This document shows positions 3,512 through 11,950 of a stretch of DNA of 64,000 nt, piece after piece. The stretch comes from Lysobacter sp. GX 14042 (GTDB lineage Bacteria; Pseudomonadota; Gammaproteobacteria; Xanthomonadales; Xanthomonadaceae), in contig NZ_JAJUWY010000003.1 of NCBI RefSeq assembly GCF_021390425.1, positions 124,001 through 188,000 of the forward strand. The letters run 5' to 3'. A model generated the notes under the pieces. The model worked only from the letters and a program-made list of their open reading frames with translations. It was not told the DNA's origin and did no database searches. Position 1 is the stretch's first letter. Each line of letters starts with the position of its first letter. Position numbers and translations under genes: made by a program.

Positions 3512-4870
3512 ATGGCCGCAGTTACCGCCGGGCCCGGACAATGCGTGGTCTGGTTTGGAGAGCCGCTTGCGCGCGAGCGCAAGGCGCTCGCCGCCGCCGG
3601 CTGGCAGCTGCGGGCGATCCCGCCCGGCCGCGGCCGCGACGGCATCGGGCTGCGGGCGGGCGACACCGTGGTCGGGATGCTGGACCTGCGCGAGGCGGAT
3701 GCGGCGGCCGCCGGGCACGCCGCGCAGCTGGCCGGTGAGTACCGGCACCTGCCGTTCCTGGCCATCATCCCTCGGCGGCTGGCGCAGGCCCCGGCCCTGG
3801 CTCCCCTGCTGGCGCAGTGCCGGCGCCACTTCACCCGCGCCCCGGATACCGAGGCGCTGATCGCGGCGGTCACCGAACTGGCCGGCCCGCCGGCGCCGCA
3901 GAGCACCGGCGGACTGGACGCGCTGGTGGGGCGGAGCCCGGCAATGCTGGCCACCATCGCCGCCATCAGGAAGTTCGCCCCGATCGACCTGCCCACCCTG
4001 ATCACCGGCCAGACCGGCACCGGCAAGGAGGTCGCCGCGCGCGCGCTGCACGACCTGTCGCCGCGCGCCGGCAGGGTGTTCGCGCCGCTCAACTGCGGCG
4101 CGATTCCGGACAACCTGGTGCAGTCCGAACTGTTCGGGCACGAGCGCGGCGCCTTCACCGGCGCGACCGCCCGCCGGACCGGGCTGTTCGAAGCCGCGCA
4201 TGGCGGCACGGTGTTCCTGGACGAGATCGGCGACCTGCCCCTGGATGCGCAGACCAACCTGCTCCGGGTATTGCAGGAGGGCACGATCGAGCGGGTCGGC
4301 AGCCACCAGCCGGTGGAAACCGATGTGCGGGTGATCGCGGCCACCCACGTCGACCTCGAGCAGGCGATCGCCGCCGGGCGCTTCCGTGCCGACCTGTACT
4401 ACCGCCTCAACGTCCTGCGGCTGCGGATGCCGCCGGTGGCCGACCGCGGCGAGGACATCGTGCTGCTCGCGCAGCATTTCCTCGACCGTTTCCGCCAGCT
4501 GCATGCCACCCGCGCCCGGGGTTTCAGCGCCGGGGCACGGCGTGCCATGGCCGCCTTCGACTGGCCGGGCAACGTGCGCGAACTGCTCAACCGGGTGCAG
4601 CGCGCGGCCGTGGTGGCCGAGTCCGAGCTGATCAGCGCCGGCGAGCTGGAACTGCCGGAGGCCGGGCCGGCGCCAGGGGGACGCGGCCTGGACCGCGCCC
4701 GCATCGACGCCGAACGCGACATGCTGCTGGGCTGCCTGCGCGACAGCGGCTACAACGTCAGCCAGGCCGCGCGCCGGCTCGGAGTCTCGCGGATGACCGT
4801 GTACCGGCTGTGCCGGAAGCACCAGCTGCCTGTCACGCAGCTGCGCCGCACTGGCGGCCGCGGGCACTAG
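3512..4870 (+). CDS. Sigma-54-dependent Fis-type activator
   Basis: The 452-aa product is an NtrC-family enhancer-binding protein. Residues 1-130 form an atypical N-terminal domain without a clear phosphoryl-acceptor pattern. The AAA+ domain covers about 137-370: Walker A GQTGTGKE (166-173), the sigma-54 contact loop GAFTGA (213-218) and Walker B VFLDEIGD. A Fis-type HTH (NVSQAARRLGVSRMTVYRL) ends the protein. It converges on the Fap-like operon, the two stop codons overlapping at CTAG, and a sigma-54-type promoter precedes that operon. It is therefore the likely activator. The start at 3512 has GGGAGG unusually close, so the N-terminus could be slightly different. Confidence 0.93.
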   Translation: MAAVTAGPGQCVVWFGEPLARERKALAAAGWQLRAIPPGRGRDGIGLRAGDTVVGMLDLREADAAAAGHAAQLAGEYRHLPFLAIIPRRLAQAPALAPLLAQCRRHFTRAPDTEALIAAVTELAGPPAPQSTGGLDALVGRSPAMLATIAAIRKFAPIDLPTLITGQTGTGKEVAARALHDLSPRAGRVFAPLNCGAIPDNLVQSELFGHERGAFTGATARRTGLFEAAHGGTVFLDEIGDLPLDAQTNLLRVLQEGTIERVGSHQPVETDVRVIAATHVDLEQAIAAGRFRADLYYRLNVLRLRMPPVADRGEDIVLLAQHFLDRFRQLHATRARGFSAGARRAMAAFDWPGNVRELLNRVQRAAVVAESELISAGELELPEAGPAPGGRGLDRARIDAERDMLLGCLRDSGYNVSQAARRLGVSRMTVYRLCRKHQLPVTQLRRTGGRGH

Positions 4871-6294
4871 AGCATGTATGGCACCTTGAAGATCAGGCTG
4901 AAGTCGGGGGCGTCGGGTGTCAGGCCGATCCCGAGCTGGGTGACGAAGGTGGCATTCGGGCTGAGCGCATAGGTCACGCCCAGGTTGAACATCGCCGCGT
5001 TGGCGTCGCTGCCGATCACCTTCAACCAGTTGCCGTCGCCCTCGTCGTAGCGGGTGCGCGCGCGCGCGCTCAGCTTGTCGCTGACCGAAAGGCTCAGGCT
5101 GGTGCGCTCGTTGAAGGCGAACGCCAGGCCGGCTCCGAAGTAGAACGACCGGCCCAGCCAGACCTCGCCGGGATTGACCGTGTCGGGGTTGTTGTCCAGG
5201 TCGTCGAAACGCCTGGCAAACGGGTGCATGTAACCGAAGTTGGCAAACAGGATCGCCGGGTCGGCGGTCTTGACGAAGGACATGCCTACGTTGGCCTGCC
5301 AGGCCCCGCTGCCGGTGGGCTCCTCCTCGGGCACCGCGAAGCGGATGAAGCCGTCGTCGTCGCGCTCCAGCACCCGCCACGACACCCCGTAGGGTTCCTG
5401 CCCGGTGGGCGCGGTCACGCCCACGGTCAGCACGGTGTCGGGCCAGTTGGCCCGCTCGGTGAACACGCGGTAGTTCGCGCTCAGGGTGATGTCGCCCAGG
5501 CCGGTGCCGGTGGTGTGCTCCTGGGCGATCGCGCTGGCCGCGCCGCCGGCGCCGCCCTTCTGGTAGACGGTCTTGCGCGCCAGCCACGGCACCTCGATGT
5601 TGAGCGAGGTGCGCGGGTTGAGGCCGTAACGTGCGGCCGCGGTCCAGGTCAGGGTGTCGGATTCGACGTTCTCGATGGCGATGTTGCCCAGGAAGATCGC
5701 GTCCAGCGCCAGGAAGCCGGTCAGGGTCAGCTGCTTGCGGTCGTAACGGTTGTAGGAAAGGCTGTTCTCCAACGTCAGGCGGCGGTTGAACAGGGCCTGC
5801 TGCTGTTGCTTGACGTCCTGCACGCTGCGCATCGTCGCCTGCTGGGCGCGCTCGGCCTCCTCGGCGGTGCCGGCATGCCCGGGCGGCGGCTCGGCCGCTG
5901 CGGCGGCCGCGGCGGTGCCGGGGGCAGACGGCGGCATCGGGGGCGGCGGCGGTTGCGGAGGTGCCGGGACCGGCGCCCCCGATTGCGGGTCCGGAGCAGC
6001 CGCGGTACCGCGCTCGATCCGCGACTGCAGGGCCTGCAGCTGCATGTCCAGTTCGCGCAGCCTGCGAACCTCCTGCGCGTAGCTGTGCTTCAGCGCCTCC
6101 AGCTGCGCGGTCAGCGCCTGCAGTTCCCCGGCCTCGTCTCCTGCCGGTTGGGCGGGCTGCGCCTGCGTTGCCGGCGGTGCCTGCGGGCCGACGGGCGACT
6201 GGGCCTGGGCGGCGCCGGCGAAACCGCCGGCTCCCAACCCCGCGAGTGCGGCGGCGGCAAGCGCGCGTACCGCGGTGGATGCGTTGGTGTCCAT
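4867..6294 (-). CDS. FapF-like outer-membrane beta-barrel protein with coiled coil
   Basis: This is the last gene of the Fap-like operon (475 aa). A signal peptide (about residues 1-32, ending AAQAQ) is followed by a coiled coil (about 57-95, ELQALTAQLEALKHSYAQEV). A proline/alanine linker comes next, then about 300 residues of alternating beta-strand pattern. In Pseudomonas, FapF is a trimeric outer-membrane pore with an N-terminal coiled-coil plug that exports the amyloid subunits; the domain order here is the same. The ATG at 6292-6294 is preceded by GGGGAAG. Assignment rests on architecture and operon position, not a measured similarity; a generic porin-like export channel remains possible. 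Confidence 0.75.
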   Translation of the reverse strand: MDTNASTAVRALAAAALAGLGAGGFAGAAQAQSPVGPQAPPATQAQPAQPAGDEAGELQALTAQLEALKHSYAQEVRRLRELDMQLQALQSRIERGTAAAPDPQSGAPVPAPPQPPPPPMPPSAPGTAAAAAAAEPPPGHAGTAEEAERAQQATMRSVQDVKQQQQALFNRRLTLENSLSYNRYDRKQLTLTGFLALDAIFLGNIAIENVESDTLTWTAAARYGLNPRTSLNIEVPWLARKTVYQKGGAGGAASAIAQEHTTGTGLGDITLSANYRVFTERANWPDTVLTVGVTAPTGQEPYGVSWRVLERDDDGFIRFAVPEEEPTGSGAWQANVGMSFVKTADPAILFANFGYMHPFARRFDDLDNNPDTVNPGEVWLGRSFYFGAGLAFAFNERTSLSLSVSDKLSARARTRYDEGDGNWLKVIGSDANAAMFNLGVTYALSPNATFVTQLGIGLTPDAPDFSLIFKVPYML

Positions 6295-6338: not shown

Positions 6339-7121
6339 TCAGATGCCCGGGCCGATGCCGCGGGCCGTGACCATGGCCTGGGCGACGGTCTGCGCGAGCA
6401 TCGCCTGCGCCGCCAGCGGCTGCTGCACCAAGTCGATCTGCAGCCGGTTGGCGGCGACCTGGTGGTCGGCCGCCAGCTGGATGCTCTGGCCCAGGCTGCC
6501 GCTGCGGATCCACTGCTCGACCGCGCCCTGGCCGTCGATCTGCAACTTCACCCTGGCGGTGCTGCCATCGAAGCCGGCCAGCACGGTGGCATCGCCGAGC
6601 CGGCTCACCGCGTCATGCCCGTACATCGGCATGGCGCTGCCGTCCGGCGCGCCGCTGCCCTCGCGCACCCGCAAGTGGGCCAGGTTGCTGGCGGTGTTGC
6701 CGTCACCGGCGACCTGCACGCTCTGCAGCAGGCCCGACGCATTGGCCAGGCCGGATGCATCGATGCTGCGCGCGCCGCCGCCGGTCACCGGCAGCGGAGC
6801 GTCGGCATCGGTGATGCTGACCACCGGGGTGAAGCTGACCACCGGCACCTGGGCGCCGTCGCTGAAATCCAGGCCCAGGGTCATGCCGCCCTCGAGCGTG
6901 CGCCCGGCGGCATCGGTCCAGGTGGAGATCATGGTGACCCCGAACCAGGCGACCGAGTTGCCGCCGACCGTGTAGCGGCCGCGCATGAGCTCGAGCTCGG
7001 GGTCGGGGATTTCGGTCAGGCCGCGGCCGGGCTGTGTCGCGGCCGCCGGGGCCGGGCAGGCGAGCGCCAGCAGGGTTGCGAGCGCGCCTCCGGCCAGGAT
7101 GAGGAAAGATCGGGTGAGCAT
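6339..7121 (-). CDS. FapE-like exported protein
   Basis: The 260-aa product has a signal peptide (cleavage near ACPAPAAA, residue about 27) and a secreted body. The body includes GLLQSVQVAGDGNTASNLAHL, which resembles the amyloid-repeat core of the neighbouring subunits. The ATG at 7119-7121 is preferred over the GTG at 7128-7130 because GGGAG lies eight bases before it, directly after the upstream stop codon. Its position between the C39 protease and the barrel protein matches fapE. The Cys-X-X-Cys seen at the C-terminus of Pseudomonas FapE is absent. Its role is inferred from position. Confidence 0.6.
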   Translation of the reverse strand: MLTRSFLILAGGALATLLALACPAPAAATQPGRGLTEIPDPELELMRGRYTVGGNSVAWFGVTMISTWTDAAGRTLEGGMTLGLDFSDGAQVPVVSFTPVVSITDADAPLPVTGGGARSIDASGLANASGLLQSVQVAGDGNTASNLAHLRVREGSGAPDGSAMPMYGHDAVSRLGDATVLAGFDGSTARVKLQIDGQGAVEQWIRSGSLGQSIQLAADHQVAANRLQIDLVQQPLAAQAMLAQTVAQAMVTARGIGPGI

Positions 7122-7133
7122 GGCCACCACTCC

Positions 7134-7841
7134 CTAGAAGAGATCCGCATGGGTGAACCCGAAGTCGAGCAGCTCGGCGTCGGTGACCGGTACCTGGCGT
7201 GCCAGCAGCCGCCGCGCGCTGGGGCGCTCCATCGGCTCCAGCAGTACCGTGTTGCGGTCGAAGTCACTGCCTATCACGACGAATACGGCGCGCGACGGCC
7301 ACGAGGCGAGGAACTCGTCCAGGGGCACGCTGCGGTTGCCGAGGATCGGATCGCCGAGCTCCACCCGGTCGCCGATGACCTGCTTGAGCACCACGAAGTG
7401 CCGGAAACCGTTGACGTCCATCAGCACGATGCCGGGGACCCGCAGCGAACGCAGCCGCTCCTCGTCGACCCGGTAGCCGCGCCCGCGCATGCCCAGCGAC
7501 TCCACGTACCGCTTGATATCCAGCAACGAGAACCCGCGCTGGGCCACCAGTTCCGCGTCCGCGTTCCCGAGCATCCCCTCGATCACCATCGGCTCGTCGG
7601 CGTCCAGGTGGTAGGCGTACTTCAACAGGGTCGCCAGCGATGCCGCGCCACAGCTGTAGTCGGTCTGCTGCCGCACCAGGTGGCGGAAGCGGCGCTCGGT
7701 CATGCTTTCGACCGGGGTGGTGTAGACCGCCCCATTGGGCAGCACGCCGCTGAAGGCCACTTCCGCCGCACCGGCCGGATCGCTCCCGGCGGCGAGGAAA
7801 GCGCAGGCCGCGAGCACGCGGAGCCTGTTCCGGGAACCCAT
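7134..7841 (-). CDS. FapD-like C39 family cysteine protease
   Basis: The 235-aa exported protein has a signal peptide (about residues 1-25) and a papain-like C39 domain. Visible catalytic elements are Gln59, Cys64 in YSCGAAS, His148 in GFRHFVVL and Asp164 in LGDPILG. In the Fap system, FapD is the periplasmic C39-type protease that processes or licenses subunit export. Here it sits between the major repeat protein and the FapE-like gene, as fapD does. The C39 fold assignment is strong; the substrate is inferred from context. Confidence 0.88.
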   Translation of the reverse strand: MGSRNRLRVLAACAFLAAGSDPAGAAEVAFSGVLPNGAVYTTPVESMTERRFRHLVRQQTDYSCGAASLATLLKYAYHLDADEPMVIEGMLGNADAELVAQRGFSLLDIKRYVESLGMRGRGYRVDEERLRSLRVPGIVLMDVNGFRHFVVLKQVIGDRVELGDPILGNRSVPLDEFLASWPSRAVFVVIGSDFDRNTVLLEPMERPSARRLLARQVPVTDAELLDFGFTHADLF

Positions 7842-7963: not shown

Positions 7964-9727
7964 TCAGCCACCCGGGCCCGGATCGACCGGCGGGGTACCA
8001 CCGGTGGACGGCTGCGCGACCGCCAGCGACAGGCTGTTGGACTGCAGGTTGCCGCTGCCGGAGGCGATGTTGACGCCGATGTTGCCGGAGGCGCCGTTGA
8101 AGGCCGCACCGGTCAGCGTGGCGCTGTTGGTCGCCGCGACCGCCACCTGGTAGCTCATGTCCAGGGTGCCGGTGAGGGCAGCGGCCATCTCGGCATCCGA
8201 CAGGTCGATGGTGCCGGCCTCGTCGGTGTCGAAGGCGATGCCGCCGATGCTCCCGAACTCGTCGGAGTCGCGGTACGGGTTGTCGATCGAGCCCTGCATG
8301 TCGCCGTCCATGTCGAGGTGGCCCAGACGCGGCGAATCGGGATGGTTGCCGTCGTTGCCGTCGGCGCCCCAGACCTCCGGATAGATGTTGCCCATCTGGT
8401 AGGCCGCGCCACGGCCGGCATAGCTGCCCGCCGAGCCGTCGGTACCGGTGAGCGTGCCGCCGATGGTCAGCGTCAGGGTGTCCTGGACCTCGGTCATGGT
8501 GCCGGCGTTGTTGGTCACGTTGCCGGTCGAGACCTGGTCGGAGGCCACCGAGGCCTGCGCATAGGCGCTGGTGGCCACCGAGGCGGCCAGCGAGTTGCGC
8601 TGGGCGTTGTTGTTGCCCGAAGCGGCGTTGACGTTGATATTGCCCGACGCGCCGCTGAAGGCCGCTCCGCTGAGGCCGGCGGCGTTGGCGACGCCCGCGT
8701 TGTTGGTGACGTTGCTGGCGCCCAGCTGGTTGTTGAAGATCTCCGCATCGGCCATGCCGAAGGCGAAGCTGGCGTCGGCCGCCGACAGCGCCGCGGCGTT
8801 GTCCTGGGCGTTGTTGTCGCCAGCGGCGACGTTGAAGCCCAGGTTGCCCGAGGCGCCACCACCCGCGTCGTCGCCGATCGCGGCGATGTTCTCGAGCGTG
8901 TCGTTGTTGCCCTCGTTGCCCACCGTGGTCTGGCGGCCATCGACCACCGCGATCGCGGCCGAGTCGAGGTCGATCGAACCGGTGATCTCGGGGGCGCCGG
9001 TGAACGCGATGTCCGAACTCACCGACAGGTCCTTCGACAAGTAGACCGAGCGGCCGTGCTCGTTCTGCTCACGACGGATGTCGGAGTCGACATCGACGTT
9101 CTCGTACACCTCGTTGGTCGACATGCGCTGGTCGACGACGTAGTTCTCGCTGGAGGTGAGACGCTGGTCGACGAGGTAGTTCTCGCTCAGCGCGCCGGTG
9201 ACCCGGATGTCCTCGGCGTAGGTACGGCTCTCGTTGACCGAGTAGTCCTGGTCCACGTCCAGGGTGTAGTTCTCGGTGTTGTTGACGGTGTTGTTGAAGG
9301 TATCGCTGGCGGTGTTGGTCACCGTGTTGGTTTCGCTGTTGGCCAGCGTGTTGGTGATCGTGTTGGTCTCGGTGTTGTCGAGCGTGTTGGTCACCGTGTT
9401 GGTTTCGTTGTTGGTGACGGTGTTGTCGTAGGTGTCGTTGTAGCGGATCACCGCGGCGGCATCGAGCACCAGGTCGATGTCGGCGTCGATCGCGGCATTG
9501 ACATCGGCATTGACGTTGATGTTCTCGGTGTAGTTGCGCTCGGTGGTGTTGGTTTCCATGTTGCGGATGTCGTCGACGGTGATGTCCCAGTCCTCGACGA
9601 CCACGTGGTTGTGCAGGATGTCGGCGTCCGCGTTCGGGTCGTCGACGCTTTGCGCGAAGGCGGCGGGGCTGGCCACCAGGGCAGCCACCGCGACCGCCAT
9701 CGCGGTTTTCCTCAGGTTGACGTTCAT
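7964..9727 (-). CDS. FapC-like major amyloid-repeat protein
   Basis: The 587-aa secreted protein has a signal peptide (cleavage near residue 25, AAFAQ). It has three spaced copies of a GASGN-[IL]-x-[VF]-N-x-A-[AS]-G-x-N-x-Q-x-N motif at about residues 291-315, 359-384 and 545-571. Pseudomonas FapC likewise has three Asn/Gln-rich repeats separated by linkers. Upstream lie two further tandem repeats: a 12-residue Thr/Asn unit (ETNTVTNTLDNT, three copies, 108-143) and a 12-residue unit starting SENY (two copies, 181-204). The ATG at 9725-9727 has GAGAGAA before it. The protein has no cysteine, unlike FapC, which ends in Cys-X-X-Cys. Amyloid formation is inferred. Confidence 0.75.
   Translation of the reverse strand: MNVNLRKTAMAVAVAALVASPAAFAQSVDDPNADADILHNHVVVEDWDITVDDIRNMETNTTERNYTENINVNADVNAAIDADIDLVLDAAAVIRYNDTYDNTVTNNETNTVTNTLDNTETNTITNTLANSETNTVTNTASDTFNNTVNNTENYTLDVDQDYSVNESRTYAEDIRVTGALSENYLVDQRLTSSENYVVDQRMSTNEVYENVDVDSDIRREQNEHGRSVYLSKDLSVSSDIAFTGAPEITGSIDLDSAAIAVVDGRQTTVGNEGNNDTLENIAAIGDDAGGGASGNLGFNVAAGDNNAQDNAAALSAADASFAFGMADAEIFNNQLGASNVTNNAGVANAAGLSGAAFSGASGNINVNAASGNNNAQRNSLAASVATSAYAQASVASDQVSTGNVTNNAGTMTEVQDTLTLTIGGTLTGTDGSAGSYAGRGAAYQMGNIYPEVWGADGNDGNHPDSPRLGHLDMDGDMQGSIDNPYRDSDEFGSIGGIAFDTDEAGTIDLSDAEMAAALTGTLDMSYQVAVAATNSATLTGAAFNGASGNIGVNIASGSGNLQSNSLSLAVAQPSTGGTPPVDPGPGG
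9116..9187 (-). repeat. Two tandem 36-bp units (SENY repeat)
   Basis: This stretch encodes SENYLVDQRLTS followed by SENYVVDQRMST in the FapC-like protein. The DNA copies differ at several positions, so the repeat is kept at the protein level. Confidence 0.75.
9299..9406 (-). repeat. Three tandem 36-bp units (Thr/Asn repeat)
   Basis: This stretch encodes ETNTVTNTLDNT, ETNTITNTLANS and ETNTVTNTASDT in the FapC-like protein. The units are imperfect at DNA level and continue as degenerate Asn/Thr-rich sequence on both sides. Confidence 0.8.
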
Positions 9728-9765
9728 GGTTCTCTCTCTCTTTGGTACCACGGGTGGAACGGGTG

Positions 9766-10395
9766 TCACCTGCCCCGGAAATCCAGTGCGAGCTGATTGC
9801 TCGTCGCATTGCCCGAGCCGGCGACCTGGTTGAGTTGCAGCACTCCCGAGAATCCCCGCAGTGCCGTGGCTTCCACCGCGACTGAGCGCGAGCCGCTGGC
9901 GGTCGCGCGCGGATCCATGGAGGTCTGCTCCCCCGCCGACGCGGAAACGAGCGACAGACCTTCGTCGCCCGTCTCGCGTATGCCCTGTGCCGCCAGCGTC
10001 GCGGTGACGAGGTTCACCTCGGCATTGCCGCTCCCGCTGGCCTGGTTGATCGATACGATTCCGCTGGCGCCCGCCAGGGCCCGGCCGCCGATGCCGGCTT
10101 CGGCCCGGTGCGGCGTGTCGAAACGGTCGCCGCCGCGCGACTGGCGCGCGGTTGCCGCCGCATCGGCGTGCCCGCCGCTGGCGAGGGCGTGCACGTTGGC
10201 CTGCATGTTCAGGTCGCCGGCGGCCTGGTTGACCGCGATGGCGCCACTGGCACCGGCCAGCGCGCTGTCACCGATGTGGCTGTGGGCGAGATAGCCGAGC
10301 AGCGCCTCGTAGGATTCGGCCGCCGGCTCGTCGGCGGCTGCCGGAGCGGCGCAAGCGAGACAGGCCAGGAGCAGCAGCGGAAACCGCGTCGCCAT
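9766..10395 (-). CDS. FapB-like minor amyloid-repeat protein
   Basis: The 209-aa product has a signal peptide (about residues 1-21, ending APAAAD) and three copies of an amyloid-type repeat: GASGAIAVNQAAGDLNMQAN, GASGIVSINQASGSGNAEVN and GFSGVLQLNQVAGSGNATSN. This is the pattern of FapB, the minor or nucleator subunit in Pseudomonas, which also has three repeats. The ATG at 10393-10395 lies three bases after the stop of the upstream gene, so the two are co-transcribed. There is no C-terminal Cys-X-X-Cys. Subunit function is inferred from repeats and gene order. Confidence 0.72.
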   Translation of the reverse strand: MATRFPLLLLACLACAAPAAADEPAAESYEALLGYLAHSHIGDSALAGASGAIAVNQAAGDLNMQANVHALASGGHADAAATARQSRGGDRFDTPHRAEAGIGGRALAGASGIVSINQASGSGNAEVNLVTATLAAQGIRETGDEGLSLVSASAGEQTSMDPRATASGSRSVAVEATALRGFSGVLQLNQVAGSGNATSNQLALDFRGR

Positions 10396-10398
10396 GGT

Positions 10399-10932
10399 TC
10401 AGGGGCCTCCCGGCGGGGTGGTCGACTGCGATGCCTGGCCCATGAGCGGGAACTGCGCCAGCGCACCATTGATCTGGTCCGCGATCCCGCCGGTGGCGCG
10501 GTGCACGGCGCCGATCGGCACCGAAACGCTGCCGCTGAGCGAGGCGCCCGACAGCGGCCCCGAATTCCCGGTGAGCACATCCAGCGAGCCGCCCACGGCA
10601 TGCCGGGTCATCCGCTCGACGGTGGTCGGCCCGGCAACCGGTCCCGCGCCGGTGCTGGCGCCCAGGGCGGCGAACTCGGCGTCGGTCAGCTCACCGGTGC
10701 CGAGGACGCGTTCGAGCTCGGTGCGCGGCGAGGGATCCACGATGACCGCCATTCCCGGCGGCATCGAGCGGTACGCGTGGCGGGCGTGCACATCACGCAG
10801 GACCACGATCTCGCCATGCCGCGCCTTGTCGGAGTGGCGCGCGCCGGATGCCTGGGCGAGCAGGGGCGCCAACGCCAGCAGACTCACGGAGACGATCAGG
10901 GCCCCGCTGCGGAGACGGGCTTGGCTTGACAT
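10399..10932 (-). CDS. First gene of Fap-like operon, small exported protein (FapA position)
   Basis: The 177-aa product has a signal peptide (about residues 1-30, ending LLAQASG). The C-terminal half is rich in Gly and Ser (NSGPLSGASLSGSVSVP). The ATG at 10930-10932 is preferred; the longer reading frame starts at a TTG that coincides with the predicted promoter. By position it corresponds to FapA, a periplasmic chaperone-like protein in Pseudomonas, but no FapA-specific motif was identified. Confidence 0.6.
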   Translation of the reverse strand: MSSQARLRSGALIVSVSLLALAPLLAQASGARHSDKARHGEIVVLRDVHARHAYRSMPPGMAVIVDPSPRTELERVLGTGELTDAEFAALGASTGAGPVAGPTTVERMTRHAVGGSLDVLTGNSGPLSGASLSGSVSVPIGAVHRATGGIADQINGALAQFPLMGQASQSTTPPGGP

Positions 10933-10967
10933 GGGGGTGGTTCCCGAATGGATGCAAGGGAACCAAC

Positions 10968-10983
10968 GCACGGTGCATGCCAA
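10968..10983 (-). promoter_or_regulatory. Sigma-54-type promoter of the Fap-like operon
   Basis: On the minus strand TTGGCATGCACCGTGC gives the invariant GG-N10-GC spacing of a sigma-54 promoter. The -24 element is TTGGCA and the -12 element is GTGC. Transcription would start near 10956, about 24 bases before the first start codon of the operon. A sigma-54 activator gene sits at the other end of the same operon. Confidence 0.7.
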
Positions 10984-11043
10984 GCATAAATGTCCTTTTA
11001 CTTCAATCAGTTACGAACAACGCGAGATGTTTTCGCGTCCGCT

Positions 11044-11054
11044 GGTGTAACACC
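11044..11054. promoter_or_regulatory. Palindrome upstream of the Fap-like operon, site 1
   Basis: GGTGT-A-ACACC is a perfect 5-1-5 palindrome about 70 bp upstream of the -24 element. It is a candidate upstream activator site. Confidence 0.4.
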
Positions 11055-11125
11055 CGTGTGCCATCCCGGAGGCCGGGTGGCGCCCTGGCACGGCGCACAT
11101 CCAGGCAGCAGCGGTCGCATCGGCA

Positions 11126-11147
11126 GGTGTAACCCGCGTGCTACACC
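11126..11147. promoter_or_regulatory. Palindrome upstream of the Fap-like operon, site 2
   Basis: GGTGTA-N10-TACACC is a perfect 6-bp inverted repeat about 150 bp upstream of the -24 element. It shares GGTGTAAC with site 1, so the two are probably read by one protein, such as the sigma-54 activator. Confidence 0.45.
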
Positions 11148-11239
11148 CGTACCCGGGTCGTTTACACATCCGTCGTGGCGCGTGGTCCGGCACCCCTGGA
11201 CGTGGGACCATCGGCCACCAGTTCACATCGGACCCGCAC

Positions 11240-11950
11240 ATGGACGGTGACCGCCGCGACGACTTCATCCACGTGACCGAGGACGCGCTCGACGCCGCCA
11301 GCTGCCGCACGCTGGTGGAGCGCTTCGAGGCGAGCGGCGACCTCGGCCGCGGCCGGGTCGGCGGCGGTGTCCACGTGGAACTCAAGGACAGCCACGACCT
11401 GACCATCAGCGGCCGTCCGGAATGGCTGCAGCTGGAAGGCCTGCTCAACGCGGCGATGCTGCGCGGCCTGATGGACTACGTGCGCCGCTGGCCGTACACG
11501 CTGATCGCGCCCCTGATGCTCCAGGTCACCGATGCCGGCGGCCGGCCCACGCGACTGGACGCGGAACGGGTCCGGGGGATGGCCGACGCCGAGCTGGCGC
11601 CGCTGCTGCGCCTGGTGTTCCGCCCCGGCGCCATCAACCTGCAGCGCTACCGCGCCGGACAGGGTGGCTACCCCTACTGGCACTGCGAGCTGTTCCCGCG
11701 TGATGGCCAGGCCGAGACCCTGCACCGCCACCTGCTCTGGACGGTGTACCTCAACGACGGGTTCGCGGCCGGCGAGACCGAGTTCCTCCACCAGCGCCGC
11801 AGGATCGCGCCGCGGACCGGGTCACTGCTGATCGCCCCGGCCGGGTTCACCCATACCCATCGCGGCAACCGGCCGGAGGGGGGCGACAAGTACATCGCGA
11901 CCAGCTGGGTGCTGTTCCAGCGTGCCGAGCACCTGTACCCGCCGGGATAG
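11240..11950 (+). CDS. 2OG-Fe(II) oxygenase family protein
   Basis: The 236-aa cytoplasmic protein has a prolyl-hydroxylase-type jelly-roll pattern. Candidate iron ligands are His148 and Glu150 (YWHCE) and a distal His at 205 or 207 (FTHTHRG). The basic residue after it (Lys217) could bind 2-oxoglutarate. LHRHLLWTVYLND and GETEFLHQ are typical core strands of the family. The HxE in place of HxD is a known variant. The substrate is unknown. It is divergent from the Fap-like operon, but nothing shows a shared function. Confidence 0.8.
   Translation: MDGDRRDDFIHVTEDALDAASCRTLVERFEASGDLGRGRVGGGVHVELKDSHDLTISGRPEWLQLEGLLNAAMLRGLMDYVRRWPYTLIAPLMLQVTDAGGRPTRLDAERVRGMADAELAPLLRLVFRPGAINLQRYRAGQGGYPYWHCELFPRDGQAETLHRHLLWTVYLNDGFAAGETEFLHQRRRIAPRTGSLLIAPAGFTHTHRGNRPEGGDKYIATSWVLFQRAEHLYPPG

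Follow-up and report, generated by a model that had tools for sequence, protein, structure and literature searches.

A predicted sigma-54 enhancer-promoter with a BrfA-type activator at a Fap-type amyloid operon in Lysobacter and its relatives

Introduction

The control of Fap functional amyloids is known in outline from Pseudomonas. In Pseudomonas fluorescens PF07, 5'-RACE placed the start of fapA at a -24/-12 promoter, and expression of fapA-E needs RpoN and also requires the adjacent convergent gene brfA (PMC9207406). BrfA of PF07 is reported to be a direct regulator of fapA that senses c-di-GMP (PMC13101488, citing Guo et al. 2024). Within the literature surveyed, one Pseudomonas strain is the case in which an activator is described as regulating Fap amyloids directly.

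Here, we analyze a 64-kb stretch of DNA (the window) from Lysobacter sp. GX 14042, a host that, in contrast to PF07, belongs to the Lysobacteraceae. We conclude from sequence comparison, with a probability of about 0.9, that the region upstream of fapA acts as enhancer-promoter for a Fap functional-amyloid operon that would be run by RpoN and a BrfA-type activator. Beyond the Pseudomonas outline, our comparison shows that this wiring is conserved in Lysobacter-type bacteria and that the enhancer and IHF sites keep a conserved geometry, and it gives signs of operon, switch and activator being exchanged together as a single cassette. It further indicates that, across Gammaproteobacteria, fap operons are accompanied by the same kind of sigma-54 switch, with two enhancers, an IHF site and an activator of their own.

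Results and discussion

A Fap-type operon in the window

The window carries a complete fapABCDEF set in canonical order, the order also found in PF07, with a C39 peptidase as FapD:

10399-10932, minus strand: fapA, putative chaperone (NF058617, E 2.6e-8, below the curated cut-off)
9766-10395, minus strand: fapB, minor amyloid subunit (NF058557, E 4.1e-28, below cut-off)
7964-9769, minus strand: fapC, major amyloid subunit with an Asn/Thr-rich N-terminal region (NF058558, E 1.5e-45, below cut-off)
7134-7841, minus strand: fapD, C39 peptidase (PF03412; NF058616, E 2.8e-77, below cut-off)
6339-7130, minus strand: fapE (NF058559, E 1.6e-25, below cut-off)
4867-6294, minus strand: fapF, outer-membrane amyloid transporter (NF058560, E 2.5e-105, below cut-off)

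All six proteins score below the NCBIfam equivalog cut-offs (for example, 259 versus 330 for FapD and 353 versus 700 for FapF). The FapD cut-off was reached in 0 of 299 Lysobacteraceae genomes versus 44 of the 44 Pseudomonadaceae genomes with a match, and we therefore limit the claim to an operon that, by its sequence, is Fap-type and distant from the Pseudomonas set. The FapC of the window also differs from that of PF07 in its long Asn/Thr-rich N-terminal region, which contains TNTVTNT-like repeats and reaches 48% N+T per 100 residues; the other fapC frames sampled had lower values (26-40%).

A predicted sigma-54 promoter precedes fapA

10967-10983, minus strand: predicted sigma-54 (-24/-12) promoter of fapA, TTGGCATGCACCGTGCG, at the same position in orthologues

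A GG-N10-GC box 36 bp before the first gene had been claimed in an earlier note on this DNA, and it is present as TTGGCATGCACCGTGC on the minus strand at 10968-10983, 36 bp before the ATG of fapA (10932), although its weight comes from the extended consensus and not from the spacing. The bare GG-N10-GC pattern occurs 1855 times in the 64-kb window versus 1853 expected; it is thus uninformative by itself in this GC-rich sequence and was dropped as promoter evidence. The extended form TTGGCANGNNNNNTGC has a single copy in the window versus 0.16 expected, and TTGGCATGNNNNNTGC has five copies in the 2.8-Mb genome. Both the -24 GG and the -12 GC lie in this extended context, and the genome encodes rpoN, in two copies, as well as an activator bearing GAFTGA. 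No sigma-70-type promoter was found in the control region, and the +1 position of fapA is predicted near 10956.

Given that the spacing and generic palindromes are both common in the window, the claim for the promoter is carried by the comparison across loci. We compared 80 named loci and further loci taken from other genomes, and 74 fapA-bearing loci were scanned. A sigma-54 box precedes fapA in all 74 (69 directly and the other 5 after a wider search), normally about 30-37 bp from the start of the gene. Among Pseudomonadaceae fap loci, 17 of 20 have the box and 3 lack a clear one; most carry a CGGCAC form in contrast to the TTGGCATG of the window. Boxes were also found before fap in loci of several other gammaproteobacterial families, with some weaker matches. 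The search among orthologues for a loss of the GG/GC elements, as the earlier note had proposed, therefore found them retained, including before the second fap-like operon described below.

Two enhancer sites and an IHF-like site lie at conserved distances from the promoter

Three further elements were recognized upstream of the box:

11001-11013, minus strand: IHF-like site, TAACTGATTGAAG, with 2 mismatches to YAANNNNYTGATW, beginning exactly 30 bp upstream of the box
11044-11065, minus strand: predicted proximal activator (enhancer) site, GATGGCACACGGGTGTTACACC, with a strong half, GTTACACC, and a weak other half, scoring 13/16 at 82 bp
11126-11147, no strand assigned: predicted distal activator (enhancer) site, GGTGTAGCACGCGGGTTACACC, a 22-bp inverted repeat scoring 15/16 at 164 bp

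Two palindromes had been noticed here from the sequence alone, about 70 and 150 bp upstream, which is correct if the distances are counted from the sigma-54 box. Both are real, and the distal one coincides exactly with the 22-bp enhancer site, whereas the proximal one had been placed in the wrong register. The 11-bp palindrome GGTGTTACACC at 11044-11054 has only its strong half in common with the 22-bp site, and its 1-bp spacer is an accident of register. Instead, conservation identifies 11044-11065 as the proximal element, given that scored sites fall at fixed distances and that the window scores 13/16 at 82 bp. The word shared by the two sites (GGTGTAAC/GTTACACC) occurs at 11044 and 11126 in the control region and nowhere else in the 64 kb.

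Sites were scored with the consensus GGTGTAWC-N6-GWTACACC, a 22-mer with 16 scored positions. The best 22-mer per locus scored between 11 and 16 in all 74 loci (64 of them non-redundant), and 62 of the 74 reached at least 13/16 versus 0.18 expected from dinucleotide shuffles, a figure that is somewhat optimistic because we composed the pattern with the Lysobacterales promoters already in view and relaxed it once the Pseudomonas promoters had been inspected. Counted upstream from the box, nearly all sites of at least 12/16 lie at 81-84 bp (in some cases 70-71 bp), at 152-156 bp or at 159-169 bp. Pseudomonadaceae loci resemble the window in both site family and distances, with a TGTWWCA-N4-TGWWACA site at 79-82 bp, mostly another at 159-168 bp, and often a third near 235-242 bp; several other families likewise match the enhancer-site family. 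We consider the recurring proximal position (79-82 bp in Pseudomonadaceae) to be stronger evidence from sequence than the shuffle figures. The distance between the two sites is bimodal, at 69-73 and 78-86 bp with none at 74-77 bp, and the modes are about one helical turn apart, with only moderate helical phasing (R about 0.53 at 10.5 bp).

The IHF consensus lies between the proximal enhancer site and the promoter. Of 64 non-redundant orthologous promoters, 35 have a match whose start is exactly 30 bp upstream of the box, and 38 loci have a site with no more than one mismatch versus 4.1 expected (perfect matches at 12 loci versus 0.1 expected and one-mismatch sites at 26 loci versus 4.0 expected). 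Both upstream enhancer sites are conserved in sequence and position among orthologues, as the earlier note had asked of its palindromes.

The convergent activator belongs to a fap-linked clade

3512-4870, plus strand: BrfA-type sigma-54 activator, convergent with the operon, with a receiver-like domain, an AAA+ domain with GAFTGA and a Fis-type HTH

The GAFTGA activator that had been described as converging on the end of the operon is indeed there, adjoining fapF with a 4-bp overlap with its stop, just as a convergent Fis-family sigma-54 activator adjoins fapF downstream in PF07, where the promoter before fapA is likewise of the -24/-12 type. The window protein and the convergent activator of a Pseudomonadaceae genome are reciprocal best hits (52.6%, about 53%, identity over 304 aa). 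A quick tree with some long branches compared them with 21 further activators from those two genomes; all fap-linked activators, including the BrfA of Pseudomonas, form one clade in it (SH-aLRT 95). By its place beside fap, its clade and its reciprocal best hit, the window protein is of the BrfA type. Among 299 Lysobacteraceae genomes, type-1 FapD occurs in 51 and the type-1 activator in 52 (one of them truncated), with both in 51; this co-occurrence is the intersection of two lists and counts related genomes without correction. The HTH recognition helix, VSRxTxYRL, is conserved across fap-linked activators, and together with the conserved sites it indirectly favors binding of the activator to the DNA upstream of fapA. 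No further target of the activator above control level was found elsewhere in the genome.

We considered that the sigma-54 promoter could be real and yet driven by another activator, such as FleQ, with the convergent gene acting elsewhere. The genome encodes five other sigma-54 activators that match Sigma54_activat in full, a FleQ relative among them, and FleQ of Pseudomonas aeruginosa resembles the window protein in having a receiver-like domain, AAA+ with GAFTGA, a Fis-type HTH and a role in the control of biofilm genes. However, a scan of the region for the literature FleQ motif found nothing, even with 3 mismatches allowed. The fap-linked activators also make up a separate clade and follow FapD across the 299 genomes, and the distal site is the sole such site in the genome, which argues against the use of another activator at fapA. 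In PF07, loss of brfA lowers transcription of both fapA and fapC (PMC9207406). The window activator itself stands on a separate branch from known FleQ, with a different recognition helix and without the LFRS c-di-GMP motif. Control by another activator is thus very unlikely, and the BrfA-type protein is preferred.

The activator also matches VpsR of Vibrio cholerae, a c-di-GMP-binding biofilm activator, over residues 22-381 including the receiver-like domain, and in its fold (7v2b). VpsR works with sigma-70, and its targets, exopolysaccharide genes, are unrelated.

The upstream sites are conserved independently of the neighboring gene

A divergent gene for a 2OG-Fe(II) oxygenase lies upstream:

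11138-11950, plus strand: open reading frame of the oxygenase

Both palindromes could in principle serve this gene and not fap, given that the distal site is near or upstream of the oxygenase start, depending on the start codon chosen. We consider this extremely unlikely, because the oxygenase was not found beside fapA in many of the Pseudoxanthomonas, Stenotrophomonas, Dyella, Rhodanobacter and Luteimonas loci that the oxygenase search covered, and yet the sites keep their distance to the fap sigma-54 box there; this distance is likewise kept in the Pseudomonadaceae loci. That the palindromes form hairpins in RNA or DNA, act as a terminator or arise by chance as repeats in a GC-rich genome is scarcely credible even though generic inverted repeats (6-bp arms, loop up to 12) are frequent, at 3 in the 310-bp region and about 10 per kb across the window, and the terminator or hairpin reading was rejected, since no terminator-like site was found in the region, single-strand folding was no better than in shuffles (z -0.49), and sequence and position are conserved across families.

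A model for fap control

Sequence and cross-locus comparison establish the operon, the predicted promoter, the geometry of the sites, the family of the activator and the presence of rpoN. We infer the remaining steps, in which RNA polymerase with RpoN would form a closed complex on the -24/-12 box (10967-10983) while the BrfA-type activator binds the inverted repeats at 11126-11147 and 11044-11065 through its Fis-type HTH. A bend at the IHF-like site (11001-11013) could then carry the activator to the polymerase by looping, where the AAA+/GAFTGA ring would spend ATP to open the promoter, leading to transcription of fapABCDEF that depends on both RpoN and the activator. The receiver-like N-terminal domain may gate the activity of the protein, and c-di-GMP is the probable signal by analogy with BrfA of P. 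fluorescens. The window activator lacks FleQ-type c-di-GMP residues, which is uninformative given that the BrfA of Pseudomonas lacks them too; c-di-GMP sensing here is thus proposed by analogy.

The suggestion in the earlier note of a self-contained regulatory unit is supported by the conserved sites, the fap-linked activator clade and the co-occurrence of activator and FapD. Its wording that the activator works across the operon holds in the sense of a trans-acting protein encoded at the far end, and should be taken to mean no more than that. Our comparison provides exact bases for mutation, as well as a sequence code with which BrfA-type targets could be predicted in other genomes.

A second fap-like operon and possible cassette exchange

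Some Lysobacteraceae carry a second, divergent fap-like operon with several FapB/FapC-like subunits (loci L117-L128, e.g., L117:810-8610). It usually has its own convergent activator, of another branch, and a sigma-54 box was found in 11 of the 11 complete loci checked; in some loci, related enhancer sites lie at 90-91 and about 215-228 bp. The candidate type-1 code would be GGTGTAWC-N6-GWTACACC at about 82 and 164 bp, and the candidate type-2 code CGTTTCA-N4-TGAAACG-like at about 90 and 215-228 bp.

A slot in Lysobacteraceae, between a two-component/2OG-oxygenase cluster and the gene for fructose-bisphosphatase, holds either type of fap operon together with its activator, and the second operon is often located in this slot. 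Downstream of the fap operon at locus L129 (genome G080) there are two adjacent fap-linked activators from different branches, which looks like the result of one operon taking the place of another whose activator stayed. In genome G202, an orphan BrfA-type activator (L227:9178-10575) is flanked by the genes for the oxygenase and fructose-bisphosphatase, and the 20 kb examined contain no fap genes. The shared slot, the distinct branches and sites, the pair at L129 and the orphan in G202, as read from gene order and trees, suggest an exchange of complete operon-plus-switch cassettes. We give even odds to the broader view that Fap cassettes, each with structural genes, a sigma-54 enhancer-promoter and a private activator, move or are replaced whole, such that two lineages with separate activator/enhancer codes fit one slot.

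A FapD search of plasmids returned no Pseudomonas reference locus. In three genomes of one genus of the family (G099, G278 and G268; loci L222-L224), the activator has been relocated and now lies divergently upstream of fapA, while the box and the distal site are kept. Two records, assigned to Bacillus subtilis SK7B5 (L065) and Candidatus Eremiobacteraeota (L094), hold Stenotrophomonas-like and Dyella-like fap loci, respectively, and are probably contaminated or mis-binned assemblies.
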